The translations under genes were made by a program, and so were the position numbers. Shown piece by piece: positions 1,508 to 41,228 of a stretch of 43,124 nucleotides of DNA. Where the stretch lies: the NCBI GenBank assembly GCA_015060835.1, contig SUXT01000012.1:1-43124 (forward strand). Direction: 5' to 3'. This DNA comes from Bacteroidales bacterium. Its GTDB lineage: Bacteria; Bacteroidota; Bacteroidia; Bacteroidales; Bacteroidaceae. How positions within the stretch are numbered: the first letter of the stretch is position 1; the number at the start of each line of letters is the position of its first letter. The notes beneath the pieces are model-generated. The model did not search any database. It worked only from the letters and a program-made list of their open reading frames with translations, and was not told the origin of the DNA.

Positions 1508-1578
1508 CAGTTAATTAGGCTGACCATTTTTTGTGGTTTGCAGTAACGTATTGAGTGAAAATATTAAAAATCAATATA

Positions 1579-2163
1579 ATGGAGAATAAAATTCAAGAAC
1601 TGACCGAGAAAATTTTTAACGAAGGTGTAGAGAAAGGACGTGCTGAGGCCGAGCGCATCATTGCTGATGCAAAGGCTGAAGCTGCATCAATTATAAAAAA
1701 AGCGGAAGCTGAAGCTGAGGAAATCGCAGCAAAAGCACGCAAGGCTGCTGCCGAACTTGATGCTAACACCCGTTCGGAACTCAAACTTTATGGAGCGCAG
1801 GCAATTGGTGCGTTGAAGTCTGAGGTTGCCACCATCGTTACTGATACAATAGTAAAGGAGAATCTTGACGGGGCAATCAAAGATGGACTCCTCAAGGAGG
1901 TTATTCTTAAGATTGCCGAAAAGTGGAACTCAAACGAGCAGTTGGTTATCTCTACAGCTGAAGCTGAGGAACTGAAAGCATTCTTCGCGGCAAAGGCAAA
2001 GGCGCTGCTCGACAAGGGTGTCGAGATAAAAGAGGTAAACGGTGTGAAAGGATTCACTGTATCTCCCGCAGATGGTTCATACAAAGTGAGCTTCGGTGCA
2101 GCCGAATTCGAGTCGTTCCTCAAATCTTTTCTCCGTCCCCAGATTGTTGAACTTCTGTTCTGA
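1579..2163 (+). CDS. ntpE: V-type ATPase subunit E
   Basis: 194 residues from ATG 1579. E is the peripheral-stalk subunit that holds the catalytic head against rotor torque. The protein is rich in Ala, Glu and Lys, with a long N-terminal helix (about residues 5-75) of repeated ADAKAEA-type heptads, then a mixed C-terminal domain. I chose ATG 1579 (MENKIQELTEK) because this is the usual start of bacteroidal E subunits. The in-frame codon at 1555 would only add a short unconserved leader. It is the first gene of a seven-gene operon (E, DUF2764, A, B, D, I, K). No separate G/H partner for the stalk is visible. Confidence 0.9.
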   Translation: MENKIQELTEKIFNEGVEKGRAEAERIIADAKAEAASIIKKAEAEAEEIAAKARKAAAELDANTRSELKLYGAQAIGALKSEVATIVTDTIVKENLDGAIKDGLLKEVILKIAEKWNSNEQLVISTAEAEELKAFFAAKAKALLDKGVEIKEVNGVKGFTVSPADGSYKVSFGAAEFESFLKSFLRPQIVELLF

Positions 2164-2171
2164 TTTATAAA

Positions 2172-3014
2172 ATGAGCGAATATCATTGTTTAGTGGCAGG
2201 ATTGCCGGATATAAGTTTCGACGCGAACAAACTGAGTTTTACCGTCGAAAATTTCAAGAGCGAAATATATCCGCGTCTTACTGCCGATGATGCTGCTAAA
2301 ATCGACCTTTTCTTCTACGGATGGGACAATGCGAATATCATCAAGATACTCAAGCAGGGCAGTGATGCAGAGTTACCGCGCGTAGGAAAATTCGATGCGG
2401 AGCAGATAGCCGAACTTATCGACGCTGCTAAGTGCGGCGATGGATGCCCCAAGCCTTTCCCTTCTTATATGTACGATTTTCTCGTTTACTATTTCGAGAA
2501 TGAGGGTCGTGAAGATATTCTTTTCGAGGATGCTCTCGCAGGTCGTTACTACGACTATGCAACACGATGCGGCAACAGTTTCCTTGAATCGTGGTTCACA
2601 TTCAACAGAAACATAAACAATCTGCAGGTAGCATTCCTCGCGCGCAAATACAAGATGAATATGTCGGAGTGTATAGTAGGCGACGATGAAACGAGCGAGA
2701 CTATACGCAATTCAGCATCAAGGGATTTTGGACTTGCAGGAACAATAGACTATCTTGAACAGGTTCTCAGATTATGCGAATCGGACAAGTTGCAGGATCG
2801 CGAAAGACAGATGGATGAGCTTAGATGGAACTGGTTGGAAGAAAATTCTATATTCAACTACTTTACCGTTGAACGCATATATGTCTTTCTGCAGAAACTT
2901 GACATTGTAACACGTTGGACAAAACTCGATACCGAGGCCGGCGCCAAACGTTACAAGGAATTGATAGACGGTCTGAAAAGCGGGCTGACAATCAACGAAG
3001 AAGATTATCAATAG
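2172..3014 (+). CDS. DUF2764 family protein of V-ATPase operon (probable C-subunit counterpart)
   Basis: 280 residues, beginning MSEYHCLVAGLPDISFD, which is typical of DUF2764. Genes of this family sit between subunits E and A in Bacteroidetes V-ATPase operons, where other bacteria have subunit C (the stalk connector). The predicted fold is almost entirely helical, with no membrane segment or nucleotide site. That fits a structural role at the rotor neck, but the equivalence to subunit C is an inference from position and helical content. It starts 8 bases after ntpE and ends 20 bases before ntpA. Confidence 0.85.
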   Translation: MSEYHCLVAGLPDISFDANKLSFTVENFKSEIYPRLTADDAAKIDLFFYGWDNANIIKILKQGSDAELPRVGKFDAEQIAELIDAAKCGDGCPKPFPSYMYDFLVYYFENEGREDILFEDALAGRYYDYATRCGNSFLESWFTFNRNINNLQVAFLARKYKMNMSECIVGDDETSETIRNSASRDFGLAGTIDYLEQVLRLCESDKLQDRERQMDELRWNWLEENSIFNYFTVERIYVFLQKLDIVTRWTKLDTEAGAKRYKELIDGLKSGLTINEEDYQ

Positions 3015-3034
3015 AAAATAACAATAAATTATAT

Positions 3035-4792
3035 ATGGCAACAAAAGGAAAAGTTACCGGTGTAATTGCAAATATGGTTCTGCTGGCAGTGGATGGCCCT
3101 GTTGCGCAGAACGAAATTTGCTATATTTCTACCGGAGGCGACCGTCTGATGGCAGAGGTCATCAAGATAAACGGCGCAAAGGTATATGTTCAGGTGTTCG
3201 AAAGTACACGCCGACTGAAGATTGGAGAGGAGGCTGAATTTACCGGTCATATGCTTGAGGTTTCTCTTGCTCCGGGTATGCTCTCGAAGAACTACGACGG
3301 ACTTCAGAACGACCTCGACAAGATGGAGGGAGTATTCTTGAAACGTGGTGATTACACCAATCCCCTCGATGAAGATAAAATATGGGCATTTGAACCTATC
3401 GTTAAGGCAGGTGAGAAAGTGCAGGCTGCTGCATGGCTCGGAAAGGTTGAGGAGAATAACCAGCCTCTGAAGATTATGGCTCCCTTCTCTCTCGAAGGCA
3501 CATGGACAGTAAAATCAATAGCCGCGGCAGGAGAGTACAAGATTACGGATACCATTGCAGTGATTGTCAACGAGGCTGGCGAGGAGATGAACATCAACAT
3601 GATTCAGAAATGGCCTGTGCGTGTGGCTATGGGTAACTACAAAGAGAAGCCCCGTCCTTTCAAACTGCTTGAAACAGGTGTGCGCACAATCGATACACTT
3701 AACCCCATAGTTGAGGGTGGTACAGGATTTATCCCCGGTCCCTTCGGTACAGGAAAGACCGTGCTTCAGCACGCAATCTCAAAGCAGGCTGAGGCGGACA
3801 TCGTTATCATCGCTGCCTGTGGTGAGCGTGCAAACGAGGTTGTGGAAATCTTCACCGAGTTCCCCGAACTTATCGACCCCCACACAGGACACAAACTGAT
3901 GGAGCGTACAATCATCATCGCAAATACATCGAACATGCCTGTTGCAGCGCGTGAGGCATCGGTTTATACCGCAATGACAATTGCCGAGTATTACCGTGCA
4001 ATGGGATTGAGAGTTTTGCTTATGGCTGACTCGACATCGCGTTGGGCGCAGGCGCTGCGCGAAATGTCGAACCGTATGGAGGAACTTCCCGGTCCCGACG
4101 CATTCCCTATGGATATTTCGGCAATCATCGCGAACTTCTACAGCCGTGCGGGATACGTTATTCTGAACAACAACGAGGTTGGTTCAATCACATTCATCGG
4201 AACAGTATCTCCTGCGGGTGGTAACCTCAAGGAGCCTGTAACCGAGAATACAAAAAAGGTTGCACGTTGCTTCTACGCGCTTGAACAGGAGCGTGCCGAT
4301 AAGAAGCGTTATCCGGCAGTTAACCCCATCGATTCATATTCGAAATATATCGAATACCCCGAATTCGACAAATATATCTCAGGAATCATTAACGATGGTT
4401 GGCTTGCAAAAGTGAACGAGGCAAAGACCAGACTTCTCCGCGGAAAGGAGATTGCCGAGCAGATAAATATCCTCGGCGACGATGGTGTACCCGTAGAGTA
4501 TCATGTAACATTCTGGAAGTCTGAACTTATCGACTTTGTGGTGTTGCAGCAGGATGCCTTTGATGAGGTTGATGCCGTAACTCCTCTTGAACGTCAGGAG
4601 CAGATTTTGAATCTTGTGATGGATATTTGCCATACAAAGTTCAAGTTCGAGCATTTCCAGGAGGTTACAGTCTTCTTCAAGAAGGTAATCAACCTGTGCA
4701 AGCAGATGAACTACTCTGAGTACAAGTCAGATAAATTCAACGACTATCTTGCACAGATTCAAGAACTCATAGCAACCAAAAAATCTGCATAA
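3035..4792 (+). CDS. ntpA: V-type ATPase catalytic subunit A
   Basis: 585 residues from ATG 3035 (MATKGKVTGVIANM). Subunit A hydrolyses ATP, or makes it in reverse, in the A3B3 head. The N-terminal beta barrel is followed by the A-type non-homologous insertion and the nucleotide domain. The P-loop reads GPFGTGKT at residues 235-242, against GxFGSGKT in most A subunits. The in-frame extension back to 2915 overlaps the DUF2764 gene and is not used. Length is normal. Translation is probably linked to the upstream gene through the 20-base spacer, and ntpB follows 19 bases later. Confidence 0.97.
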   Translation: MATKGKVTGVIANMVLLAVDGPVAQNEICYISTGGDRLMAEVIKINGAKVYVQVFESTRRLKIGEEAEFTGHMLEVSLAPGMLSKNYDGLQNDLDKMEGVFLKRGDYTNPLDEDKIWAFEPIVKAGEKVQAAAWLGKVEENNQPLKIMAPFSLEGTWTVKSIAAAGEYKITDTIAVIVNEAGEEMNINMIQKWPVRVAMGNYKEKPRPFKLLETGVRTIDTLNPIVEGGTGFIPGPFGTGKTVLQHAISKQAEADIVIIAACGERANEVVEIFTEFPELIDPHTGHKLMERTIIIANTSNMPVAAREASVYTAMTIAEYYRAMGLRVLLMADSTSRWAQALREMSNRMEELPGPDAFPMDISAIIANFYSRAGYVILNNNEVGSITFIGTVSPAGGNLKEPVTENTKKVARCFYALEQERADKKRYPAVNPIDSYSKYIEYPEFDKYISGIINDGWLAKVNEAKTRLLRGKEIAEQINILGDDGVPVEYHVTFWKSELIDFVVLQQDAFDEVDAVTPLERQEQILNLVMDICHTKFKFEHFQEVTVFFKKVINLCKQMNYSEYKSDKFNDYLAQIQELIATKKSA

Positions 4793-4811
4793 CAGATAAA
4801 CCGACATTATT

Positions 4812-6143
4812 ATGGCAACTGAAGCATTTCAAAAGATATATACAAAAATTACAGCTATCACCAAAGCTACCTGTTCGCTGAAGGCAACAGGTGTAGGCTA
4901 TGACGAACTTGCTACCGTAAACGGCAAACTCGCACAGGTGGTGAAAATCATGGGTGACGAAGTTACATTGCAGGTTTTTGAAGGTACCGGCGGTATCCCC
5001 ACAAATGCCGAAGTGGTGTTTATGGGCAAAGCTCCCTCGTTGAAGGTTAGCGACCAGCTTACAGGCCGTTTCTTCAATGCATACGGCGATCCTATCGACG
5101 GTGGTCCCGTAGTTGAAGGCCGCGAGGTGGAGATCGGCGGTCCCTCTGTGAACCCTGTGCGACGCAAACAGCCTTCGGAGCTTATTGCAACAGGTATTGC
5201 AGGTATCGACCTCAACAACACCCTTGTAACAGGACAGAAGATTCCTTTCTTTGCCGACCCCGACCAGCCTTACAACCAGGTTATGGCTAATGTGGCATTG
5301 CGTGCAAAGACCGACAAGATTATCCTCGGAGGTATGGGTATGACAAACGACGACTACCTCTATTTCAAGAATCTATTCTCTAATGCAGGTGCTCTCGACC
5401 GTATCATCTGCTTCATGAATACCACAGAGGACCCTGCCGTTGAGCGTCTGCTTATTCCTGATATGTCGCTCACCGCAGCCGAATATTTTGCAGTGGAAAA
5501 GAATCAGAGTGTACTTGTGCTGTTGACAGATATGACAATGTATGCCGATGCACTTTCTATCGTATCGAACCGTATGGACCAGATTCCCTCAAAGGACTCG
5601 ATGCCCGGTTCGCTCTATTCGGATCTTGCAAAGATTTACGAGAAAGCTGTGCAGTTCCCCTCAGGAGGTTCAATCACAATTATTGCGGTAACCACACTTT
5701 CGGGAGGCGACATTACACATGCTGTGCCCGACAACACAGGTTACATCACCGAGGGACAGCTCTTCCTGCGTCGCGACAGTGATATCGGAAAGGTTATTGT
5801 CGACCCCTTCCGTTCGCTCTCTCGTCTGAAGCAGCTTGTGGCAGGAAAGAAGACACGCAAGGACCATCCTCAGGTGATGAATGCCGCTGTCCGTCTGTAT
5901 GCCGATGCTGCAAATGCAAAGACCAAACAAGAGAATGGATTCGACCTTACAGATTATGACAAGCGTACACTCTCATTTGCAAAGGATTACTCAGATAAAT
6001 TGCTGGCTATCGATGTCAACCTCGATACAACTGAGATGCTCGATGTTACTTGGGGATTGTTTGCAAAGTACTTCAAACCCGAAGAGGTGAACATCCGTCA
6101 GGAACTTATTGAAACATTTGGTAAGGTAATGCTCGAAAAATAA
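4812..6143 (+). CDS. ntpB: V-type ATPase subunit B
   Basis: 443 residues. B is the non-catalytic partner of A in the hexameric head. Recognisable features are the N-terminal barrel, the segment GVGYDELATVNGKLAQVV, the central TGIAGIDLNNTLVTGQKIP region (where A has its P-loop and B does not), and SLYSDLAKIYEKA with the conserved LTDMTMYADAL stretch. The stop codon TAA overlaps the ATG of ntpD by one base, so the two are translationally coupled. Confidence 0.97.
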   Translation: MATEAFQKIYTKITAITKATCSLKATGVGYDELATVNGKLAQVVKIMGDEVTLQVFEGTGGIPTNAEVVFMGKAPSLKVSDQLTGRFFNAYGDPIDGGPVVEGREVEIGGPSVNPVRRKQPSELIATGIAGIDLNNTLVTGQKIPFFADPDQPYNQVMANVALRAKTDKIILGGMGMTNDDYLYFKNLFSNAGALDRIICFMNTTEDPAVERLLIPDMSLTAAEYFAVEKNQSVLVLLTDMTMYADALSIVSNRMDQIPSKDSMPGSLYSDLAKIYEKAVQFPSGGSITIIAVTTLSGGDITHAVPDNTGYITEGQLFLRRDSDIGKVIVDPFRSLSRLKQLVAGKKTRKDHPQVMNAAVRLYADAANAKTKQENGFDLTDYDKRTLSFAKDYSDKLLAIDVNLDTTEMLDVTWGLFAKYFKPEEVNIRQELIETFGKVMLEK

Positions 6144-6745
6144 TGATTTCATTCCAGTATAACAAAACATCGCTTCAGCATCTCGAAAAGCAACTGAAGA
6201 TGCGACAGCGTACTCTTCCTATCATCAAGAATAAGGAGAGTGCACTGCGTGTCGAAGTAAAGAAGTGCAAGAATGAGATGGTGGAGTATGATGCCGAGTA
6301 CGAAAGACTGATGGAAAGTTACAAGGAACTTTTCGCACTGTGGAACGACTTCGATGCTTCGCTGGTGAGAACAGGTGACTTTGTAATTGAAAGACAGAAA
6401 GTGGCAGGAGTGAAAGTGCCCGTACTCAAGAATGTTGAATTTGTTGTAGCTCCTTATAGTATGTTCTGTACTCCAAAATGGTATATGGATGGAATAGAAC
6501 TGCTGAAACAGATGGCTTTGACTGCAATAAGGCGCGAACTGCTCGAAAAGAAGTTCGCATTGCTCGAAAGGGCAAGAAAGAAGACTACCCAAAAGGTAAA
6601 TCTCTTCGAAAAGGTGCAGATTCCCGGCTATCAGGATGCTATCCGTAAAATCAAACGATTTATGGAGGATGAGGAGAATTTGTCAAAATCTTCTCAGAAA
6701 ATCCTTAAATCGTTGCTCGAAAATAGAGAGGAGGCTGCCGTATGA
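6143..6745 (+). CDS. ntpD: V-type ATPase subunit D
   Basis: 200 residues. D forms the central rotor shaft, a long antiparallel coiled coil inserted into the A3B3 head. The sequence fits this: charged amphipathic helices at both ends (about residues 1-75 and 120-195) flank a short beta-rich middle. The N-terminal motif YNKTSLQHLEKQLKMRQRTL is typical of the family. Its start overlaps ntpB by one base and its stop overlaps ntpI by four (ATGA). Subunit F, which normally caps D, has no gene in this operon. Confidence 0.93.
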   Translation: MISFQYNKTSLQHLEKQLKMRQRTLPIIKNKESALRVEVKKCKNEMVEYDAEYERLMESYKELFALWNDFDASLVRTGDFVIERQKVAGVKVPVLKNVEFVVAPYSMFCTPKWYMDGIELLKQMALTAIRRELLEKKFALLERARKKTTQKVNLFEKVQIPGYQDAIRKIKRFMEDEENLSKSSQKILKSLLENREEAAV

Positions 6746-8583
6746 TTAGCAGAATGTATAAACTGACCATGCTGGTCTATCATAAGGAGTATGAGGCGTT
6801 TCTCGAAAAGTTGCGCGAAATAGGAGTAGTGCACGTTGTCGAGAAGAACAGCGGCTCGGCCGATTCGCCCGAATTGCAGTCCTTGCTTTCGTTGCACGGA
6901 CGCTGCGAGAGGGTGATGAAGAGACTCGAATCTGTTTCCCGCGAAAATGACAACGTTCCTGCCGAACCCGATAGTGCCGAGCGTGTGATTGAGAAGTGTG
7001 AAGAACTTTTCAGACAGCGCGAACAACTGTTGCAGGAGAAAGTGGCAGTGGAGAAGGATGTTGCAACAATGTCTGTATGGGGCAATTTTGACGATGCACT
7101 TGTGCAGCGGTTGTCCGACGAGGGATATGTGATAAATTTCTTCCAGACTGCTGCTAAGGCTTTTGACCCTGAGTGGGAGAGCAAATATAATGCCATTGTC
7201 GTTAACAGTGTGGCTTCGAAGCTCTATTTTGTAACTGTTACCCACAAGGGTGAGGATTTTGAGATTGAGGCAGAGAAGGTACGTATGTTACCACAGTCGC
7301 TCAGCGAACTTGAGACAAGACTACGCGATATAAATACCGAAATTATTGTATGCGACGACCGCATGGCAAGCTATGCCGAAGAGTATCTGCCTGTGCTGAA
7401 GACCTTTGCCAAGAATCTGCTTGGAAAGATGGAATTCTCGAAGGTGAAACTCGATGGCGAAAAGGTTTCGGGCGACAAACTTGTGATGCTCGAAGGCTGG
7501 GTGCCTGAGGATGCTCTGGAAAATGCAAAGACTTCGCTCGATGCAAGCAGTGTATTCTATGAGGTAAGAAGGGCTCGTCGCGGCGACAATGCTCCGGTGA
7601 AACTGAAGAACAATGCCTATACACGTATGTATGAGGTGCTGACTAAAATGTACGGTATGCCCAGTGCGACAGATTTTGATCCTACACCTATTGTGGCTCC
7701 CTTCTTCTCGCTCTTCTTTGCATTCTGTATGGGCGACGCAGGTTACGGACTTATCCTTATTCTGCTCGGATTCCTGCTCAGAAGCAAACTCGGCAAGGAT
7801 ATGAGAGGAATGATGAATCTTGTAATCACGCTCGGTATATTCACTACTGTGATTGGTGCACTGCTCGGTACTTTCTTCGGAATGAGCCTTCTTGACTCGG
7901 ATATTCCCCAAAGATTGAAGGATTTTATCGTTGCCGGTAATGTGGAACTTTTCGGTTCTGTGTACGACAAGCAGATGATTCTTGCACTTGGAATCGGTGT
8001 GGTGCACATCTCCATTGCCATGACAGTAAAGGCAATCAACAGCACTTTCTTCTACGGCTTCAAAGAGTCGTTGAGCGATTGGGGCTGGTGGCTGATTGTT
8101 GTCGGAGGCGTGTTAGTCGGTGCGCTCACATTTATGAGTGTAATACCTGCTGAGGTTTCAAAATGGGCTTTCATCGCTGTTGCCGGTATAGGTGCAGTTG
8201 GTGTCTATCTGCTCAATAATCTCCGTCGTAATGTCTTTGCAAACATCGGTGCCGGACTTTGGGATACCTACAATATGGCTTCGGGACTTTTAGGAGACGT
8301 ATTGTCGTATATCCGTCTGTTTGCACTTGGTCTTGCAGGCGGTATGCTGGGACAGACCTTCAACAGTCTTGCGATGATGGTCGTGGACGGTACTGAAGGC
8401 TTCGCTGCTGTGCTGGGCTGGATAGGCTTCGGACTGATTATTGTCTTCGGACATACATTGAATATTGCAATGTCCTGCCTTAGCGCATTTGTTCACCCGT
8501 TGCGTCTTACCTTCGTTGAGTATTTCAAGAACGCGGGATATGATGGCAAGGGTGTTGAATATAAACCTTTCAAGAATAAATAA
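6742..8583 (+). CDS. ntpI: V-type ATPase membrane subunit I (a subunit)
   Basis: 613 residues. Subunit I is the stator membrane protein that provides the ion half-channels next to the K ring. The N-terminal 320 residues are soluble and partly coiled coil. The C-terminal half has about seven or eight transmembrane segments, starting near residue 320 (PFFSLFFAFCMGDAGYG, a family signature). The essential arginine is seen in LSYIRLFALGLAGG as R525. The gene starts inside the last codons of ntpD and lies 28 bases before ntpK. Confidence 0.96.
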   Translation: MISRMYKLTMLVYHKEYEAFLEKLREIGVVHVVEKNSGSADSPELQSLLSLHGRCERVMKRLESVSRENDNVPAEPDSAERVIEKCEELFRQREQLLQEKVAVEKDVATMSVWGNFDDALVQRLSDEGYVINFFQTAAKAFDPEWESKYNAIVVNSVASKLYFVTVTHKGEDFEIEAEKVRMLPQSLSELETRLRDINTEIIVCDDRMASYAEEYLPVLKTFAKNLLGKMEFSKVKLDGEKVSGDKLVMLEGWVPEDALENAKTSLDASSVFYEVRRARRGDNAPVKLKNNAYTRMYEVLTKMYGMPSATDFDPTPIVAPFFSLFFAFCMGDAGYGLILILLGFLLRSKLGKDMRGMMNLVITLGIFTTVIGALLGTFFGMSLLDSDIPQRLKDFIVAGNVELFGSVYDKQMILALGIGVVHISIAMTVKAINSTFFYGFKESLSDWGWWLIVVGGVLVGALTFMSVIPAEVSKWAFIAVAGIGAVGVYLLNNLRRNVFANIGAGLWDTYNMASGLLGDVLSYIRLFALGLAGGMLGQTFNSLAMMVVDGTEGFAAVLGWIGFGLIIVFGHTLNIAMSCLSAFVHPLRLTFVEYFKNAGYDGKGVEYKPFKNK

Positions 8584-8596
8584 ACGTAAAATTTAA

Positions 8597-9031
<435 letters not shown>

Positions 9032-33573: not shown

Positions 33574-33822
33574 TTATTCATCCATTCCCTTGAGTGTCTG
33601 TCGCAGTATATTGTCGAGTGAATCATCGTCGCTGCTCTCCCGTTCCTTGTTGAGTTTTATCAGGAAGTCGGTCAAACTCTTTATTGCCTGATTGATTGTC
33701 GACGGGTCTTCACAGTCGTTTGTTAGCCTTTCGAGCCTGCGGATGAGACGGTGGAAGAGGGCGAGCATTTCGCTCCGCACATCGTCGATTGTGATTTCTT
33801 CTTTCTTTGTTCTTTTTGTCAT
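33574..33822 (-). CDS. Small helical protein of unknown function
   Basis: 82 residues. I do not recognise a family. It has a basic N-terminus (MTKRTKKEE), two predicted amphipathic helices (about 14-35 and 42-62) and an acidic serine/aspartate segment (ESSDDDSLDN) before a short last helix. No membrane or signal segment is seen. It diverges from the phage-like genes that start at 33990 and ends 39 bases before the rplY promoter. A phage origin, such as a small DNA-packaging or regulatory protein, is possible from position only. Confidence 0.65.
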   Translation of the reverse strand: MTKRTKKEEITIDDVRSEMLALFHRLIRRLERLTNDCEDPSTINQAIKSLTDFLIKLNKERESSDDDSLDNILRQTLKGMDE

Positions 33823-33869: not shown

Positions 33870-33928
33870 TGCTCCCCTTTAAATTTTCTGGTTGCTGTAT
33901 TGACATTTTCATTAAGGAGGTGTTGTAA

Positions 33929-33964
33929 ATGTTATTTCCGCAACCTTGTTTCTGCTTTCTGTAG
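33929..33964 (+). CDS. 11-codon ORF with perfect Shine-Dalgarno, possible leader peptide
   Basis: AAGGAGGTG at 33914-33922 is a nine-base complement of the usual 16S rRNA 3' tail, spaced six bases from ATG 33929. The ORF encodes MLFPQPCFCFL and stops at TAG 33962-33964. It ends 25 bases before the first phage-like gene and is out of frame with it. The neighbouring genes use AT-rich leaders without such a site. A TTGACA lies just upstream (33900-33905). It could be a leader peptide that affects the genes behind it, or a remnant of a phage gene start. Confidence 0.4.
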   Translation: MLFPQPCFCFL

Positions 33965-33989: not shown

Positions 33990-34544
33990 ATGGAACCAAT
34001 CAGTGCAGTATTATCCGGCATTACCGGAGGATTGAAATTGTTTTCGGGTATCAAGGGATTGTTCGACGGCGACGACGATGCAAGACAAATGTATGAAAAT
34101 GCAAGGGCAGCCGAACAGGCTTGGTACAAACGGAATTATTACAACGACTATTTGAACAGCAGTATGGCACGTGCAGCCATAAAGAGGGTAGAGGATACAC
34201 TCAGCAAGAAAGCGCGTCAGGGCAGAGCATACGCGGCCATTGGCGGAGCTACTCCTGAGTACTCCTTGGCAGCATCAGCCGAAGGATTGCGATCAATGGA
34301 TGGATTGTTGACCAATCTCGCAGCGAGTGAAAGTGAGCGCCGGAATGGAGTCGACGCACAACATTTGAGCAACATGAACTCCATCAACAGCAACGAAATG
34401 TCGTGGAACAGAGGTGTAAGGAAACAGGCTGATGCCGACCTTATAGGCGGTCTCTCGCTCATTGCCGACGCAGTTAAAGGTGCAAAATGGGGCAAAGAAG
34501 AGGAGACTCCGAAAGATAATCAGGGAACAACAAGTGGTGTATGA
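33990..34544 (+). CDS. Phage internal virion / DNA-ejection protein (gp14-like)
   Basis: 184 residues from ATG 33990. The N-terminus is a glycine-rich hydrophobic segment (SAVLSGITGGLKLFSGIKGL), followed by a helical body with alternating Arg, Asn and Ala (MYENARAAEQAWYKRNYYND; SMARAAIKRVEDTLSKKARQ). This plan, with a short membrane-active head and a long polar helix, is that of the small ejection proteins of T7-like and related podoviruses (internal virion protein B). Identity is by layout, not by a diagnostic motif. An in-frame extension to 33900 would start at TTG and add a cysteine-rich stretch; I reject it. The stop overlaps the next start (ATGA). Confidence 0.7.
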   Translation: MEPISAVLSGITGGLKLFSGIKGLFDGDDDARQMYENARAAEQAWYKRNYYNDYLNSSMARAAIKRVEDTLSKKARQGRAYAAIGGATPEYSLAASAEGLRSMDGLLTNLAASESERRNGVDAQHLSNMNSINSNEMSWNRGVRKQADADLIGGLSLIADAVKGAKWGKEEETPKDNQGTTSGV

Positions 34545-34849
34545 GACGCAGGATAGGTTACAGAAACAGCAAGCGGATGGAGCTATTCCTGCTTGCCTCA
34601 ATGCTTGATACAGTGTTGCGCAGCAGGGGAAATGTCGTCGACGAACCTCCCGCAAGATGCAACGACGAAGCACATAAGGATATTATGGACTCCTTGCGCA
34701 ATGCCGATGTGCATGATGTGTCAGTGAGCAAATCCATACTGATGGATGGTCTCGGGAATGGCGATCGAAACACTTCAATTTCGTTCTCGGTATCATTGCC
34801 TGAGAATAAGAGTTCAAAGAAACAATTTATGAGTAAAAACAAAAAATAA
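34541..34849 (+). CDS. Small basic phage-module protein, unknown function
   Basis: 102 residues. No family recognised. The N-terminus is basic (MRRRIGYRNSKR), followed by a short helix (MELFLLASMLDTVL), a polar middle, and a C-terminus rich in Ser and Lys (SSKKQFMSKNKK). It is translationally coupled to the ejection-type gene before it by a four-base overlap and ends six bases before the giant gene, so it is most likely part of the same virion operon. Confidence 0.7.
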   Translation: MRRRIGYRNSKRMELFLLASMLDTVLRSRGNVVDEPPARCNDEAHKDIMDSLRNADVHDVSVSKSILMDGLGNGDRNTSISFSVSLPENKSSKKQFMSKNKK

Positions 34850-34855
34850 ACAATT

Positions 34856-37800
34856 ATGCTTAACGACAATTTAGAGAACCGGGGGATTTACGGTTATTCA
34901 AAATCCAAAGAGAAGAAGCGTATGGATACGATTCTTGACAGTATGCCTGGAAAGGGTATCGAATCGGCCGATGCATTTGTTCCCTCCGAAGGACTTGCCG
35001 AAGTTGGAACCACGCTTGACAGAGTGAACAGCACAGTGGATGTGCTTGGCAACAAAGAACAGCGCAGTGAGTTTCACAGAAACATAGCTCGCGAAAATCT
35101 GGTGCCGACCGACACAGAGCAGCGCCGTCGCCGTCAGTTTGTTCTTTCGGATAATGTAATAGACGATGCTGTCGACGAATATTATCAAAACAGGGTGCTT
35201 CCCGAATTCACTCAGCAGCGTCAAAGCGCCGAAGATAGGGCCTCGGGAATATTCAGAGAAAATGCTGCCGTTCCGGGTGCCGACCCGCTTGCTACAATAG
35301 GTGCAGCCCGCAATGCTGCCGATCCGGCAAGGGTGATTGGCAACACTATGGAGCGTCTCGACAATGACGAACTGAACAGGATAGCCGATGCATATGCCCG
35401 TTACGGAGGTCTCGACACTGATGCTTACCGTAAACATGTACTTGAACCCAATCTGCAAAACAGGATGTATGGCGATTATGTGAAGCGCAGCACCCCTGCC
35501 GGCAGCCTTGAATACATTGGTCGTGGCATCATAGACAACTCAGTTACAGGTAAAGCCATCAAATGGGGTATAGACAAATTTGCCCAATCCGATACGCAGA
35601 CAAAAATAGACAGAGAGGGTATGGCCAATTACAATGCCGGCAGAGCCGAAAATTTCGCTGCCGGTGTAGGTTCTCTTATACTGGATACAGGTATCTTTGC
35701 CGGATTCGGAGGATTGGCCAGAGGTGCTGTCGGAAAATCCACTTCCATGATTACTAAAGGGCTCACATCGCGTTTGGCAGCAAGAGGAGCTTCGAGAGGA
35801 CTTACCGGTGAGGTCGCTGCGCGTATCGTTGACCGTAATTTCTTGCAGACATTGGGTACGCGAATTGCACAGAGCGGTTCAGCACAAGGATTGACTCTTG
35901 GCGCATACGATGCTACGAACAGCGTTGTCGACGACCTGCTTTACGGCGAAGGTATCACAGCAGGCAAGGTCGCAGGTGCTTTCGGCAAAGGCTTTGGTAC
36001 AGGTATGGCTCTTGGTGTTGTCGGTACTCCCCTGCGTCAGGCTGCCAAAGGACTGACAGGCGGGAAGAAAGTGCTTGCTTCAGCCGGTGTGCTCAGTGCC
36101 GAGTCGGCAGTGTTTACTCTCGGTGTAGAGGCAGAGAAACTGGCTGCAGGTGTCGAGGTTGAGCCCATCGACCTCTTGGGCGACTTTGGCGAGAGCGCAG
36201 CAACACTTCTTACAATGCGTATGGCCCACTGGAGACCTCGGGGAGCACAGCAGAAACTGAATGCCGACGGTCGTCTGAGGCCCGAACTTTCGTTCAATCA
36301 TCTTGAACAGCAGGAGATGCGCAGTGCCGGTGTCAATCCCGGAGAGTTCATATCTCATGTCGAGCAGGCCCTTAATCCCCGTTACGGCGGATTGCGTGGA
36401 GTGTCGCGCAACAACTTCATAAGCAATTACGAGAATCTTATGTCAAGCGAGAATCTCTCGGCATCCACACGTTCCAAACTGTTGTATATCGTCGAGAACA
36501 AGATGACTTCAACACCTCCTGTAGGAGTCGATTGCAGCATTAACACCACTGATGCCGGCATTGTGGTGGACATAAAGGACAACTTCGGCAGAAGAGTGGA
36601 GCGTCGTCCCTTTGCCGACCGTAGCGAGGCCGAAGCATTTGTCGACCGCAACAGCGGAGCTCTGCGTCGCAACCGCATAGCGTCGTTGGAAGAGGGATTG
36701 CGCCGAAGCATCGATTCTGAGAACTTTTTCCGTCAAGCCGGAGAATATGCCCGCGAAACAGGTGTCGATGTTAATGAAATTTCAAATGCCATGTACCGTA
36801 AGGCGCAGGGCAAGTCCCTGAGTTCACGCGACATGCAGCTTCTCGATGACATTATGTATCGTTCGAGCTACAGCGACGCCGAACACGGCAACGTGATGCA
36901 CAGCATCCGTATGGGCATCGAGCAGAAATACGGACTACCCAAGGGCACTTTGCTCACCTCCATAGACAAAAGGGTTTCGGAATGCAGCGAAGCCGAGAAC
37001 CATGCTCTTGCCGAATATGAGGCAGCCGTACGCTCTCAGTCAGAGCAGTTGCAGAAAGGTGTCTCGTCCGAAATGCATGCCGATGCCCAAAGACTTATTT
37101 CCGAAAACGGTTTTGAAGGTTACACCGATGACCAGATAAGAAATTACGAGCAGAGATACAATCGTTCTTTTGCTATGCGTCCCTCGCAGGGTAACCCCGA
37201 CCTCATGTCATCATACAGAATATTCCGTCCCAACGAATATGAATATGTAAAGGAGCATGGATTCCCTTATCCTGCCGACGGTGAACCGCGCATCAATCGC
37301 GGAGGCGTATACAATCCCACCCCCATGCACATGTACAGCCATGACGATCTTGCCCGTATGGCTGTGAAGGCAAGGGATGTTGCAAAGAAGTTGAATACCG
37401 ACATCAAACTTGTCTACGATGTTCACGAACACGATTATAACGATCCTTTATCCGGATTTAAAGTAAGTTCAAAGGGGTGGCACGATGCCAAGTCAAACGA
37501 TGTAGTAGTTAATCTTGCGCAGAACGAGAACGTAGAGGATGTCAATTTCACTGTTCTGCATGAGATTGTAGGGCACAAGGGCTTTGACAACCTTTTCGGT
37601 AAAGCCTATGAAGATATGCTTGGCGAGATGTACTTCCGTCTTACTCCCGAAGTGCAGGCACAGGTAAGAAGAGTACAACGCGAGGGCTACGCAAATATTG
37701 AACAGGCACTGGACGAATATCTGGCAAGGATGACTGAGACACTCGACCAGACACCCGCTGAGCGTAGCATGATGCGTCAAATGAAATATTTTTTGCAATC

Positions 37801-39130
37801 TTCGCTCAACCGCATTGGTGTACCCATAAGGGACATTGACGAAAACAGATTGAGGATGCTCCTGCAACAACACCGTAAGGCCATAGAGAACAGAATGCCT
37901 GCAAAACAGCATCGTCAGAGCGTCTTCGGCTCCTTCAGAAGTTCCCATCTCGACGATTCTCAGTATGAGAGTGCGTATGGCGAGGGCTCGGCTATGATGA
38001 GAAACAGATTCCGCTTCATCGGTGAAAAGGGAGCAGCCAATCTCAAGAATTTGAAGAAGAATAAGTTTTCAAGCGACTTGAGCACTGCAAAATTCCTGAA
38101 TCGCAAAAAGAGTGACGCAGCACGCATTAAAAGAAGTACCGGATGGGAGATAGGTGCCGATGGCAAATGGAGATTCGAGATTGACGACAGCGGAATGGAG
38201 GTAAATTATTATCCCGATTTGAAGTTACGTCGCGAGCATCCTAAACTATTCGATATATATAGAAAGGTAAGATACGGCGAACCCATACAATGGACATCGT
38301 CAATGGAGGGTCAGCTGAAAAAAATCAAGTCCTTGTTAGGAAAGTATGAAAGAGAGGGTGTAAAGCTTCCCGACGCGGTGCCCGATGATATTCTCTATGA
38401 TGCATATCCCGAATTCAAGGATATAAATGTTGTCTATAGGAATATGGGCAGAGGGCTTTCGAAATATTCACCCCGTGAAAAGACGCTCTACATCAACAGT
38501 CAGGCCATCGGCACAAACGCTCTTAACAAGAGTGTGGCTATGGAGATGCAAAAGATGATTCAGGCATACGAAGGATTTTCTCAGGGATACCCTTTGAAAC
38601 CTTTCCTTTCCGATGAACTCTACCACCAGGTCAACGAGCCGCTGATTCACACTTTGGATGCGAGAAGTCCCGGTAATCATTACTACGACGGCGACAATGG
38701 AAGGCGCATAAAAGGATTATTACGGGAAAACTATGGCATTGAAAATATAAACGAAGTCCCCGGCGACCCCGATAAGTTCGATGATTTTCGTCTCTCAATG
38801 ATTCGTGCCACACCATCCGCCCTGTCGGGCAATGTCGAGGTACGCAATGTGGGAGAGCGTTTCGACTACTCTGAGGAGGAAAGGAAAATCCCATCGATGT
38901 ACACCGAGTCAATATCTCGTGAACGCCAGGTCAGCCCCAATTCTGTAGGCGATTTATATATGATGCTTAAAGGGCCTCTGGATATCATAAAGGAGATGGG
39001 ATTGTGGAAGTATTATCGTTCAAATAAAGGAAAATTCAACGACAGAGGTTTATATATGGATGGTAATGACACCAAAAATCCTGAAGGTTGGAACGACTAC
39101 ATCCGTATTTTCGGCTACAATGATGATTGA
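34856..39130 (+). CDS. Giant phage polyvalent/ejection-type protein with zincin metallopeptidase domain
   Basis: 1424 residues, no stop or frameshift. N-terminal 1-265: polar helices. About 268-455: glycine- and alanine-rich hydrophobic segments (LILDTGIFAGFGGLARGAVG), as in membrane-active ejection proteins. About 890-960: a metallopeptidase domain with HEIVGH at 902-907 and a likely third ligand in LDEYLAR (E954). About 1090-1250: a second domain opening with TGWEIGADGKWRFEID, a phrase common in phage polyvalent proteins. It ends in MEMQKMIQAYEGFSQG, where relatives carry an HExxH-type LHEIQH; here M1229 and K1233 replace the histidines. The C-terminal 1250-1424 is unassigned. It may be carried in the virion and injected with DNA, cutting host or phage proteins (inference). 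Confidence 0.8.
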   Translation: MLNDNLENRGIYGYSKSKEKKRMDTILDSMPGKGIESADAFVPSEGLAEVGTTLDRVNSTVDVLGNKEQRSEFHRNIARENLVPTDTEQRRRRQFVLSDNVIDDAVDEYYQNRVLPEFTQQRQSAEDRASGIFRENAAVPGADPLATIGAARNAADPARVIGNTMERLDNDELNRIADAYARYGGLDTDAYRKHVLEPNLQNRMYGDYVKRSTPAGSLEYIGRGIIDNSVTGKAIKWGIDKFAQSDTQTKIDREGMANYNAGRAENFAAGVGSLILDTGIFAGFGGLARGAVGKSTSMITKGLTSRLAARGASRGLTGEVAARIVDRNFLQTLGTRIAQSGSAQGLTLGAYDATNSVVDDLLYGEGITAGKVAGAFGKGFGTGMALGVVGTPLRQAAKGLTGGKKVLASAGVLSAESAVFTLGVEAEKLAAGVEVEPIDLLGDFGESAATLLTMRMAHWRPRGAQQKLNADGRLRPELSFNHLEQQEMRSAGVNPGEFISHVEQALNPRYGGLRGVSRNNFISNYENLMSSENLSASTRSKLLYIVENKMTSTPPVGVDCSINTTDAGIVVDIKDNFGRRVERRPFADRSEAEAFVDRNSGALRRNRIASLEEGLRRSIDSENFFRQAGEYARETGVDVNEISNAMYRKAQGKSLSSRDMQLLDDIMYRSSYSDAEHGNVMHSIRMGIEQKYGLPKGTLLTSIDKRVSECSEAENHALAEYEAAVRSQSEQLQKGVSSEMHADAQRLISENGFEGYTDDQIRNYEQRYNRSFAMRPSQGNPDLMSSYRIFRPNEYEYVKEHGFPYPADGEPRINRGGVYNPTPMHMYSHDDLARMAVKARDVAKKLNTDIKLVYDVHEHDYNDPLSGFKVSSKGWHDAKSNDVVVNLAQNENVEDVNFTVLHEIVGHKGFDNLFGKAYEDMLGEMYFRLTPEVQAQVRRVQREGYANIEQALDEYLARMTETLDQTPAERSMMRQMKYFLQSSLNRIGVPIRDIDENRLRMLLQQHRKAIENRMPAKQHRQSVFGSFRSSHLDDSQYESAYGEGSAMMRNRFRFIGEKGAANLKNLKKNKFSSDLSTAKFLNRKKSDAARIKRSTGWEIGADGKWRFEIDDSGMEVNYYPDLKLRREHPKLFDIYRKVRYGEPIQWTSSMEGQLKKIKSLLGKYEREGVKLPDAVPDDILYDAYPEFKDINVVYRNMGRGLSKYSPREKTLYINSQAIGTNALNKSVAMEMQKMIQAYEGFSQGYPLKPFLSDELYHQVNEPLIHTLDARSPGNHYYDGDNGRRIKGLLRENYGIENINEVPGDPDKFDDFRLSMIRATPSALSGNVEVRNVGERFDYSEEERKIPSMYTESISRERQVSPNSVGDLYMMLKGPLDIIKEMGLWKYYRSNKGKFNDRGLYMDGNDTKNPEGWNDYIRIFGYNDD

Positions 39131-39157
39131 TTGTGTAAACTAAAACTATCAGCATAG

Positions 39158-41149
39158 ATGAACAAGTTTTTGAATCGTCGAGTAAGAGCAGGGCACAGCA
39201 ATGGGGAAGAGAGGCTCCCGAAGGGACATAAAAGGGAAACAGCCTTTCTCGAAAAGTGTGCCTCGTGCTGGTACTCTCTGGATGAGGCGCGCCGCAAAAT
39301 GCGGCGCAGCCTCATGTACAGCTACGGCGACCAGTGGGGCGATTATGTCACAGACCCCGATTCGGGACGCTGGATGACAGAGGGCGACCTTATAAAAAAG
39401 AATGGTAAAGTGCCGCTGAAGAACAACATGATTGCCCCAATACTGAGCAACATCGACGGTCAGTTGCGTCAGCATCTTACGCGCCCCGTGTGCGTTGCAC
39501 GCGAACAGAACGAGAGCACGGTGGGAGAGATGATGAGCATTGCCATTGAGTATGTGCACGACATCAACGAGATGGAGGAGGTCGATTCCGACTCCATGCG
39601 CATGCTTCTGAATGGAGGAATGACTGCACAGCGCATCGAGTATGGCATGAATGCTGCAAAAGACAAGTGCGATGTGTGGGTCTATAGTGTAAACCCGGCC
39701 CGTCTGTTTTTCAACACCAATCTCGAAGACGTCAGGCAGTGGGATATAAATTGCATCGGCGAGCTGTTTGATATGCCGCTCGACGATGTTATTGCCCACT
39801 TTGCACGCTCGGCCGAGGATAAGGAGTTTATCCGCAATGCCTACTCTGTGGACTCGGAGTATTACCATGCGGGCAATCGAGGTGTTCAGGGCGACGAGAG
39901 TAGGGAGTTGTCCTTTTACACACCCTCGCGCAACGACCTCTGCCGTGTAATTCTCGGTTGGCATCTCGATTCGCGCGAAGCTTACCGGTGGAACGACCCA
40001 TTGAGAGGTACGTGGGGATATTCTCCCTACAACGATGCCGAGCGGCGCAAATTCGATGCAGAGAACGAGCGCCGGCGACAGCGTGCCTCTCAGTTGGGAA
40101 TAGGCGAGGACGACCTGTTGCTTGTAGAGTACAATTTCGCTACCGAGCGCTATTGGTACTACCGATACATGACTCCTATGGGCGATGTACTTCAGGAGGG
40201 ACGCAGCCCCTATTGGCACGGCGAGCACAATTATGTGCTTCACCTCTATCCTCTTATACAGGGACGGTTGGGCAATTTTGTCGAGCAGTTCATCGACCAG
40301 CAGCGTGCCATCAACCGCACTGCCACGCTCATCGACTTCATTCGCGGAACATCCTCCAAGGGTGTACTTGTGGTGGACGATGATGCCTTCGAGAGCATGT
40401 CGCGCGAAGAGGTCATCGACGAATATGTGCGCTACAATGGTGTGCTCTTTGTGAAACTGAAGCCCGGACAGAGCATCGACGGTGTTGTGCGGCAGTATAA
40501 CAGTGGTGCATCGGTAGCCGGTGACTTTGAACTTCTGAGCCTTCAGCTGCGGCTTATCAACGAAATTTCGGGTGTAAACAGTGCCATGCAGGGACAGGCG
40601 CCCAAGTCGGGTACTCCTGCGAGCCTCTATGCGCAACAGATTCAGAGTTCTTCGCTCAATCTGAGAGGACTCTTCGAGGCCTACCGCACCTTCCGCCGCC
40701 GACGCGACACGAAGCTGATGAAGACCATACAGCAGTTCTACAACGAACAGCGCCACATAGAGCTTGCCGGCAAGGATTATAGCGAGGAGGCAAAATACTA
40801 CAACCCCGACAAAGTGCAGAATGCCGAGATTGACCTCACGATAGCCGAAGGATACAACACTCCCGCCTATCAGATGCTTGCCAACGACTTTCTTATGGAG
40901 CTTTTCCGCTCCCATGCAGTGGATGTGAAGACAGTGCTCGAAAATTGCAGTTTCCCCTATGCCCGCAAGATTCTTGAGGCAGTCAAGCGCAACGAGCAAC
41001 AGTTGCAACAGGGAAAAGCAATGGAGGGTATTCCTCCCGAAATGATGGCGGCTTTGCAACAAGGTATGCAGCAGGGTGGTGGGCAAGCGTCAATGGCGGA
41101 AGATGCCGCAATGCAACCGGATGCACCGCCGGCAGTTGTCCCTCAGTAA
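39158..41149 (+). CDS. Phage portal protein (P22-like)
   Basis: 663 residues. The portal is the dodecameric ring through which DNA enters and leaves the capsid. N-terminal blocks (MYSYGDQWGDY; VPLKNNMIAPILSNIDGQLRQ) and the central segment with FVEQFIDQQRAINRTATLIDF fit the P22-type portal family. The middle region has the long helices expected for the stem and wing. The last 60 residues are rich in Gln, Met and Gly (EQQLQQGKAMEG; MMAALQQGMQQGGG), as in the C-terminal barrel or tail of such portals. It follows the giant gene by 27 bases. In a working phage the terminase would normally be nearby, but none is found in the window. Confidence 0.85.
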   Translation: MNKFLNRRVRAGHSNGEERLPKGHKRETAFLEKCASCWYSLDEARRKMRRSLMYSYGDQWGDYVTDPDSGRWMTEGDLIKKNGKVPLKNNMIAPILSNIDGQLRQHLTRPVCVAREQNESTVGEMMSIAIEYVHDINEMEEVDSDSMRMLLNGGMTAQRIEYGMNAAKDKCDVWVYSVNPARLFFNTNLEDVRQWDINCIGELFDMPLDDVIAHFARSAEDKEFIRNAYSVDSEYYHAGNRGVQGDESRELSFYTPSRNDLCRVILGWHLDSREAYRWNDPLRGTWGYSPYNDAERRKFDAENERRRQRASQLGIGEDDLLLVEYNFATERYWYYRYMTPMGDVLQEGRSPYWHGEHNYVLHLYPLIQGRLGNFVEQFIDQQRAINRTATLIDFIRGTSSKGVLVVDDDAFESMSREEVIDEYVRYNGVLFVKLKPGQSIDGVVRQYNSGASVAGDFELLSLQLRLINEISGVNSAMQGQAPKSGTPASLYAQQIQSSSLNLRGLFEAYRTFRRRRDTKLMKTIQQFYNEQRHIELAGKDYSEEAKYYNPDKVQNAEIDLTIAEGYNTPAYQMLANDFLMELFRSHAVDVKTVLENCSFPYARKILEAVKRNEQQLQQGKAMEGIPPEMMAALQQGMQQGGGQASMAEDAAMQPDAPPAVVPQ

Positions 41150-41161
41150 ATCTCTCATCTA

Positions 41162-41224
41162 AGAAGCTGTTTGAATTTTATTAGAAAATAATTCTATATT
41201 CGCGCTTTTATTCAAACAGCTTCT
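41162..41224. repeat. 15-bp perfect inverted repeat after the portal gene
   Basis: Arms 41162-41176 (AGAAGCTGTTTGAAT) and 41210-41224 are exact reverse complements, separated by 33 bases that hold a small 5-bp inner palindrome (41182-41186 with 41192-41196). No T-run follows, so an ordinary terminator is unlikely. It may be a short MITE- or REP-like element, or an insertion scar. It begins 13 bases after the portal stop. Confidence 0.7.
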
Positions 41225-41228
41225 AAAT

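Follow-up and report, generated by a model that had tools for sequence, protein, structure and literature searches.

Gene transfer agents (GTAs), among them the siphovirus-like RcGTA, are known from few lineages. FpGTA of Faecalibacterium, whose reported 40-nm particles hold ~9-kb DNA, is presented by its authors as the first GTA from the human gut and the first whose morphology is podovirus-like (PMC12946183, January 2026); the abstract of that paper names lateral transduction for Bacteroides. Here we describe a four-gene cassette (P1 to P4, the last two encoding a polyvalent protein and a portal) in a 43,124-nucleotide stretch of DNA from a Bacteroidales bacterium, called the window below, which is an entire contig (G000:C108) of a 2.64-Mb assembly. 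The cassette is probably part of a domesticated, podovirus-derived, GTA-like particle system, vertically inherited by the window's genus. This reading is carried by genus-wide presence, near-complete intactness, purifying selection, agreement with the host gene lepA above chance, varying break-up of the set and one shared promoter-type site.

The set resembles FpGTA, which has podovirus-like terminase, portal and capsid genes in two separate operons and is reported to lack phage replication genes (PMC12946183); none of the latter was recognised here among the neighbours read or scanned. Unlike FpGTA, it belongs to another phylum, keeps a polyvalent protein, has a DNA site in common with effector-like genes and is known here from genes alone. 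With RcGTA-type agents, as described in PMC9662315 and PMC7947584, it shares several loci (five in RcGTA), vertical inheritance and phage-derived structural genes. RcGTA, in contrast, derives from another phage lineage and belongs to Alphaproteobacteria, and the likeness here is one of description. MuF polymorphic toxins (PMC5576092) likewise have varied toxin domains behind a conserved part and are tied to a phage virion module, whereas no MuF domain was found in the effector-like genes scanned here, which are unlinked to the virion genes and have only the site in common with them. The structural genes of the set are of tailed-phage descent, and they are part of the host genome, which for a GTA need not mean one region. 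Searches of open-licence literature, a scope with most subscription papers and preprints outside it, turned up no such element for Bacteroidales. If the reading holds, these abundant gut bacteria would provide an independent GTA case, a hint that virus-like gene transfer in the gut is commoner than assumed.

The portal is present in 41 of the 44 genomes of the window's genus, and most of these portals are 72-83% identical to the window copy. The terminase, related to BS-TP4 gp7, occurs in 43/44 genomes, as does the capsid when searched with a genus-built profile, and a tail-like protein of 950 amino acids (aa), T7, occurs in 42/44. The window genome has terminase and capsid side by side on contig C5 and T7 on contig C130. 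Portal, T7, capsid and terminase are each present in all 11 genomes that are at least 90% complete with at most 5% contamination; the three genomes lacking a portal match are 67-82% complete. The sole capsid and terminase matches of G016 are of a prophage type, leaving the element's own type of each in 42 genomes. An earlier candidate finding, that the capsid is missing, was rejected on the genus-built profile; SU10_MCP passes its cut-off in just 2/44 genomes because that model is too distant. The portal-matching records are Bacteroidaceae or Bacteroidales assemblies, mostly from ruminant hindgut, and the genus is a group of uncultured bacteria.

Most genus loci have the same cassette unit, made up of an 82-aa gene, P1, a small protein, P3 and the portal. 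Its neighbours vary, with a ligA-like gene near it in 19 compared loci, mostly just downstream (the names ligA, dapA, malic enzyme, atp genes, S4, Pth and L25 were assigned by eye). Beside the terminase stand the capsid, an adaptor-like gene T6 (SU10_adaptor E 0.007, below cut-off), T1, T3, T4, T5 and often T9, and most genomes have a holin-like T10 (PF05105 E 3e-4, just below cut-off), T8 and T7 with this group. On C130 of the window genome, T7 is accompanied by T8, a phage lysozyme (PF00959 E 1e-40) and a holin-like gene. Among PDB sequences, the terminase matches T4 Gp17 at E 0.05. Its segments KARQWGGST, LTEVG, VDVGG, IE.NTLET and NHDDR are invariant where aligned in 39 sequences, and we take them to be Walker (ATPase) and nuclease motifs. 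The portal matched three portal chains among PDB sequences, while P1, capsid and T7 gave no match there up to E 1.

The set is broken up to different degrees across species. At one extreme, terminase through portal span a single 20-22 kb block in G019 and G030, which contains few other genes apart from a repressor-like one. In the window genome the virion genes lie on three contigs with host genes adjoining, and the contig ends allow a portal-capsid gap down to 6.7 kb. Portal and capsid share a contig in 11 genomes, at a distance of 12-35 kb in ten and 103 kb in G002, compared with 4.6 kb in BS-TP4; where they are on different contigs, they are at least 29 kb apart in 6 of the 22 genomes computed. 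In G023 (L094, L036; G023:C28, 1-37400) the capsid and portal groups are separated by F-type ATP synthase genes, and such genes occur in the fetched virion loci of 15 genomes. The contiguity expected of a temperate prophage is thus absent from the window genome and from G002. No integrase or replication gene was recognised among the neighbours read or Pfam-scanned (the scanned flanking genes being seven of C5 and C130 and three of the window); no dedicated search was made and whole genomes were not scanned.

A shared DNA site also precedes both virion gene groups. The pattern AGGTTGC-N5-TGMCA was refined from one word common to the intergenic regions of the two groups. Its strict core, GGTTGC-N5-TGMCA, has 62 matches in 1,541,277 bases of genus loci against 1.5 expected under uniform composition: no more than 400 bp separate 32 of them from P1 or the 82-aa gene (23 genomes) and the other 30 from T3, T4 or T1 (19 genomes), which leaves none elsewhere in the fetched loci. 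Inverted pairs of the site are 39-40 bp apart in eight genus loci and 50 bp apart in a ninth. In whole genomes the longer pattern has 148 matches, in 38 of the 44, versus 3 for the reversed pattern. The window itself, with two mismatches allowed, has 6 matches against 6.5 expected, and so the claim for the window rests on the position of its two near-matches and on the genus evidence. The strict site was not found in 620 kb of loci from a second portal clade (described below), nor in the 223 kb made up of two prophages, BS-TP4 and the viral contigs L202-L205, for which chance alone would give 0.2 matches. The virion gene groups look co-regulated, in a way not common to the related phages or the second clade, and a shared site of this kind is a way to find parts of an element that lie apart on the chromosome.

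A possible regulator of the site is a repressor-like protein of 208 aa, with a helix-turn-helix-like start and a second half that is LexA-like by eye (for example L094, 14328-14954). Loci were fetched from 44 genomes; in 15 of these its gene neighbours virion genes (in nine, T7), while the loci fetched from the window genome did not show it. In the PDB, residues 115-177 of the protein match LexA chains, the best E being 0.17.

The virion genes are under purifying selection. Median omega (the ratio of nonsynonymous to synonymous divergence, by Nei-Gojobori) was taken over pairs with a synonymous divergence (dS) of 0.02-1.5, with frames containing internal stops dropped first; usable pairs were few. 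It is 0.079 for the portal (12 pairs), 0.084 for the terminase (34) and 0.058 for the capsid (52), with higher values for P3 (0.177; 6 pairs, maximum 0.92) and P1 (0.186; 14 pairs), and 0.016 for lepA (94 pairs). Nearly all genus copies of the virion genes are open, and synonymous divergence is saturated for most species pairs. In the closest pairs, virion-gene dS is similar in size to that of lepA: for portal, terminase and capsid it is 0.22, 0.28 and 0.21 versus 0.22 for lepA (G004-G020), and 0.46, 0.34 and 0.51 versus 0.25 (G010-G014). Distances correlate with those of lepA (Mantel r 0.78 for portal, 0.66 for terminase and 0.77 for capsid; p 0.0002), and the trees have 10/19, 12/24 and 9/19 splits, respectively, in common with the lepA tree, where shuffles reach at most 3. 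This is a pattern of vertical descent under purifying selection, with strong disagreement between trees in some places.

These results bear on an earlier note made from the window's sequence alone, which had described a phage gene set without the rest of a phage. That holds for the window, which has no such genes, and fails for the genome, where terminase, capsid and a tail-like gene lie on C5 and C130; since the window is one whole contig, their absence there is uninformative about the genome. Its suggestion of a split prophage was partly right, in that these genes are on other contigs, and its suggestion of selection for a function was partly right as regards purifying selection on the virion genes. 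A recent insertion is contradicted by the genus-wide cassette and the saturated synonymous divergence, and a recent prophage fragment was rejected because the portal is so widespread in the genus. The signs that the note had named for such a fragment, near-identical full phages together with empty or decayed sites in relatives, were not seen: nearly all genus copies are open, and the nearest contiguous viral contigs have 58-61% identity in the portal.

Those contigs, L202-L205 from IMG/VR, are the nearest contiguous viral relatives, and just these four have the portal. They carry homologues of portal, terminase, T4, T3, capsid, T5 and T6, and three of the four have a polyvalent protein. Bacteroides phage BS-TP4 has homologues of P1, P3, portal, terminase, capsid, T1, T3, T4, T6 and T7, together with integrase, replication and repressor genes. 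Portal, terminase and capsid are contiguous in BS-TP4 and in L202-L205, unlike in the window genome. The polyvalent protein is also longer in these phages than P3, with 5,391 aa in BS-TP4 and 3,104 aa in L202 (those of L203 and L205 run off the end of the contig or locus). In two of the nearest viral contigs it includes InPase and LPD38, and in one of them also SNF2 and Eco57I; the window P3 is without these, LPD23 being the sole domain shown in its Pfam scan. Of 33 genus sequences of P3, 23 retain its HExxGHxG motif, which looks peptidase-like by eye. Polyvalent proteins are predicted to be injected along with phage DNA (PMC5512222). Contiguous prophages of the related type also occur in the genus, on G009:C6 (L060, L091, L295, L257) and G016:C128 (L066), and both genomes carry the inherited portal cassette as well.

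Beyond the genus, a mixed portal profile has matches in 34 of 393 genomes of the order and in 15 of 207 genera; five genomes from other genera of the same family gave no portal or capsid match. A second portal clade, in Barnesiella and other genera (L164-L186, L228-L256), is apparently split up too. Six genera give 3-5 portal genomes each, 25 in total, with in-frame portal stops in 5/25, and the layout is known from stretches fetched from nine of the 25. Where both were found, ~23-29 kb lie between capsid and portal in G071, G421 and G280, and separate contigs carry them in G178 and G275. In G111, G302 and G071 a distance of 3-14 kb separates terminase and portal; the other fetched stretches showed no terminase close to the element's portal. 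G178 additionally has a contiguous prophage. Domestication is less well supported in this clade than in the window's genus. Second-clade portals are present in Barnesiella sp. An22 and An55, which are presumably cultured isolates. In a portal tree of 68 sequences (part of the genus only, with 9 loci left out and supports not printed), the second clade stands apart from the window's genus, and contiguous phages or prophages stand beside each. We rejected a single origin of all sets on this topology, which suggests at least two domestications.

The shared site also occurs elsewhere in the genus. We examined 20 stretches (21 sites), picked from the 148 matches for consensus-like spacers, so the shares of neighbours are not an unbiased rate. 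By our own sorting, nine sites stand next to effector-like genes, one of them truncated; two are beside immunity-like genes, with an effector remnant at most; eight are next to fibre-like genes or to a small-protein pair by a glycosyltransferase; and two fall in no class. The effector-like genes are of two kinds. One has a short leader followed by a DUF6973 or DUF5675 domain; in the other, unrelated C-termini follow a long N-terminal part, for which two species show 81-83% identity across 184-193 residues. Family scans of the effector- and immunity-like genes gave only DUF5675 and DUF6973 above cut-off. Wherever the downstream side was examined, a small gene with a lipoprotein- or signal-type start lies behind the effector-like gene; at L347 (2259-5165) a DUF6973 effector-like gene is followed by three tandem lipoprotein-like copies, 90-100% identical, as in immunity arrays. 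Truncated copies are present at several loci. The lipoprotein and signal readings, like the tail-fibre-like labels of L348, L355 and L363, were made by eye. With a conserved N-terminal part, varied C-terminal domains and an adjacent small gene, the layout is that of polymorphic effector-immunity loci. Two effector-like proteins, one per kind, had no relative in IMG/VR (close relatives only) or in the phage collection.

The small-protein pair (~98 and 81 aa) lies behind the site at L349, L351, L353, L357 and L362, by a family 2 glycosyltransferase where that neighbour was examined (PF00535 in the one scanned).

From these genes we infer particles, packaging of cell DNA, transfer and effector delivery, which might proceed as follows. 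A repressor, perhaps the LexA-like protein, would act at the shared site and allow joint expression of the genes in a fraction of cells. A short-tailed head would be assembled and filled by the terminase, whose presumed catalytic residues are invariant, with DNA of the cell, a complete phage genome being no longer present. The cell would then lyse, and the particles would bind related cells and pass in P1, P3 and DNA. Since effector-immunity-like pairs and fibre-like genes carry the site in several species, effectors are probably also released, by the particle or by the lysing cell, with kin being immune to them. In its fullest form, the proposal is of a podovirus-derived particle, domesticated independently at least twice in Bacteroidales, that moves cell DNA and delivers polymorphic, periplasm-acting effectors against which both producers and kin have immunity; we put this forward tentatively, as a possibility that we would not yet bet on. 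Were it true, gene transfer would be tied to kin discrimination in one co-regulated particle, and the effector-immunity link would make it testable why bacteria keep a costly, probably suicidal particle.

Several observations weigh against a domesticated and vertically inherited GTA-like system. Terminase dS between G000 and G021 (0.12) is lower than lepA dS (0.30). Two portal, two terminase and two capsid splits are in strongly supported conflict with lepA, and four terminase splits are in conflict with the capsid, so some exchange between species is likely. The G018 terminase has one in-frame TGA, and T3 of G005 is spread over two frames. A genus-wide lysozyme or endolysin had to be rejected, as phage lysozyme was found in just 7/44 genomes, and the genus assemblies are mostly less than 95% complete. 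The rplY-Smr interval, whose comparison the earlier note had proposed, recurs in relatives on one side only: Smr follows the cassette in G002 and G021, both relatives of the window, but no rplY match lies beside the cassette in the other fetched loci, including that of the closest relative, G021. The site evidence has its own weak points. Uniform composition predicts an estimated ~23 of the 148 matches, and of the 30 loci returned around site matches, several have the site inside long frames and look like chance. Six of the 44 genomes, G002 included, have no exact match. The absence of the site from the phage sequence is itself expected by chance, and counts solely since virion promoters are included. 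The window genome shows no effector link; it has three exact site matches, and the one read is inside a long frame. The one-block layout of G019 and G030, finally, is also compatible with a fixed defective prophage.

The main rival accepts the same inherited particle and sees in it a short-tailed, phage-derived killing particle (a PBSX-like logic) that would bring periplasm-acting effectors to competitors, packaged DNA being a by-product of no use for transfer. The virion genes have their site in common with genes of common N-termini and varied C-terminal domains (DUF6973, DUF5675 and two without a family), the small genes with lipoprotein or secretion-signal starts follow these effector-like genes, in three tandem copies at one locus, and two genomes, with their one-block layout and repressor-like gene, bring fixed defective prophages to mind. 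The terminase, however, is retained with its presumed catalytic residues invariant, and DNA packaging therefore seems selected. Effectors were also looked for in part of the genomes, and their loading into particles would be an assumption. We regard a killing particle as rather unlikely.

An ordinary prophage, a recent fragment of one or a phage satellite is much harder to sustain. All main virion genes do have phage relatives, contiguous prophages of the related type reside in the genus and the element itself forms one block in two genomes. Against such an origin, the set is genus-wide, mostly broken up, flanked by host genes, under purifying selection and linked by a shared site; no integrase or replication gene was recognised among the neighbours read or scanned, and the four viral contigs with a portal are distant. 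We consider this very improbable. That the genes were taken over singly for non-particle functions, such as DNA translocation or a storage shell, is barely credible: long distances can separate the gene groups, and phages have a longer polyvalent protein, yet the whole morphogenetic set (portal, adaptor-like, capsid, terminase, tail-like and ejection-type genes) is kept, with one shared site.

Within the window, the cassette lies between ordinary host genes. To the left are the S4, Pth and L25 genes, beyond a GH92 gene (Pfam; the former three read by eye), and to the right are Smr/DUF2027 and DUF1573 genes (Pfam). The G+C content of the cassette is 50.0%, compared with 44.9% elsewhere in the window. 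The earlier note had described four uninterrupted genes between host genes, and all four frames are indeed open; its P22-type portal, 1424-residue polyvalent protein and small basic protein agree with the matches and properties in Table 1. Its name for the 184-aa protein, "gp14-like", drew no supporting family match in Pfam or PHROG scans, and it overlooked the minus-strand 82-aa gene and two near-matches to the shared site.

Table 1. Features of the cassette and its upstream region, in window coordinates
Feature	Positions	Strand	Remark
82-aa gene	33574..33822	-	Divergent from the cassette; travels with it in most genus loci
Regulatory-type site TGGTTGCTGTATTGACA, 1 mismatch to AGGTTGCNNNNNTGMCA	33889..33905	+	Position before the cassette
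Second, inverted site copy, 1 mismatch	33930..33946	-	41 bp from the first copy
P1, putative ejection or internal virion protein, 184 aa	33990..34544	+	Role suggested by position
P2, small basic protein, 102 aa, isoelectric point (pI) 9.8	34541..34849	+	Variable small protein holds this position in relatives
P3, polyvalent protein, 1424 aa	34856..39130	+	Pfam LPD23 PF18838 E 7.5e-13
P4, P22-type portal, 663 aa	39158..41149	+	PF16510 E 1e-37; phrog_156 E 4.3e-61

P1 has an alternative, longer frame from a TTG start at 33900. Searched with a profile of the P1 family, the BS-TP4 record shows a matching open frame at each end (E 3e-9 and 6e-8). The 82-aa gene is 55-77% identical to the window copy in a 25-sequence alignment, and its protein is predicted to form three helices in a moderate model (mean predicted local distance difference test score, pLDDT, 74). 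Family matches of the Pfam and PHROG type are weak only (E 0.04 or worse), and the best PDB match (E 0.0017) is not convincing.

Some minor observations concern the surroundings of these genes. Near the T7 and lysozyme genes of the window genome lies an AbiEii-type gene (PF08843 E 5e-36; L288 2139-2966, G000:C130), and a 509-aa gene beside T7 in G002 was set aside as an ADP-ribosylglycohydrolase. Right behind the portal, 12 genus genomes have a 139-aa lipoprotein-like gene (L036 12766-13185 and relatives), which had no family match. A V-type ATPase-like operon was read at ~1555-9031 of the window. Directly 3' of the window's portal gene, an imperfect inverted repeat occupies 41160-41228, and ~40 bp of it recur at at least 39 other places in the genome with 89-100% identity.

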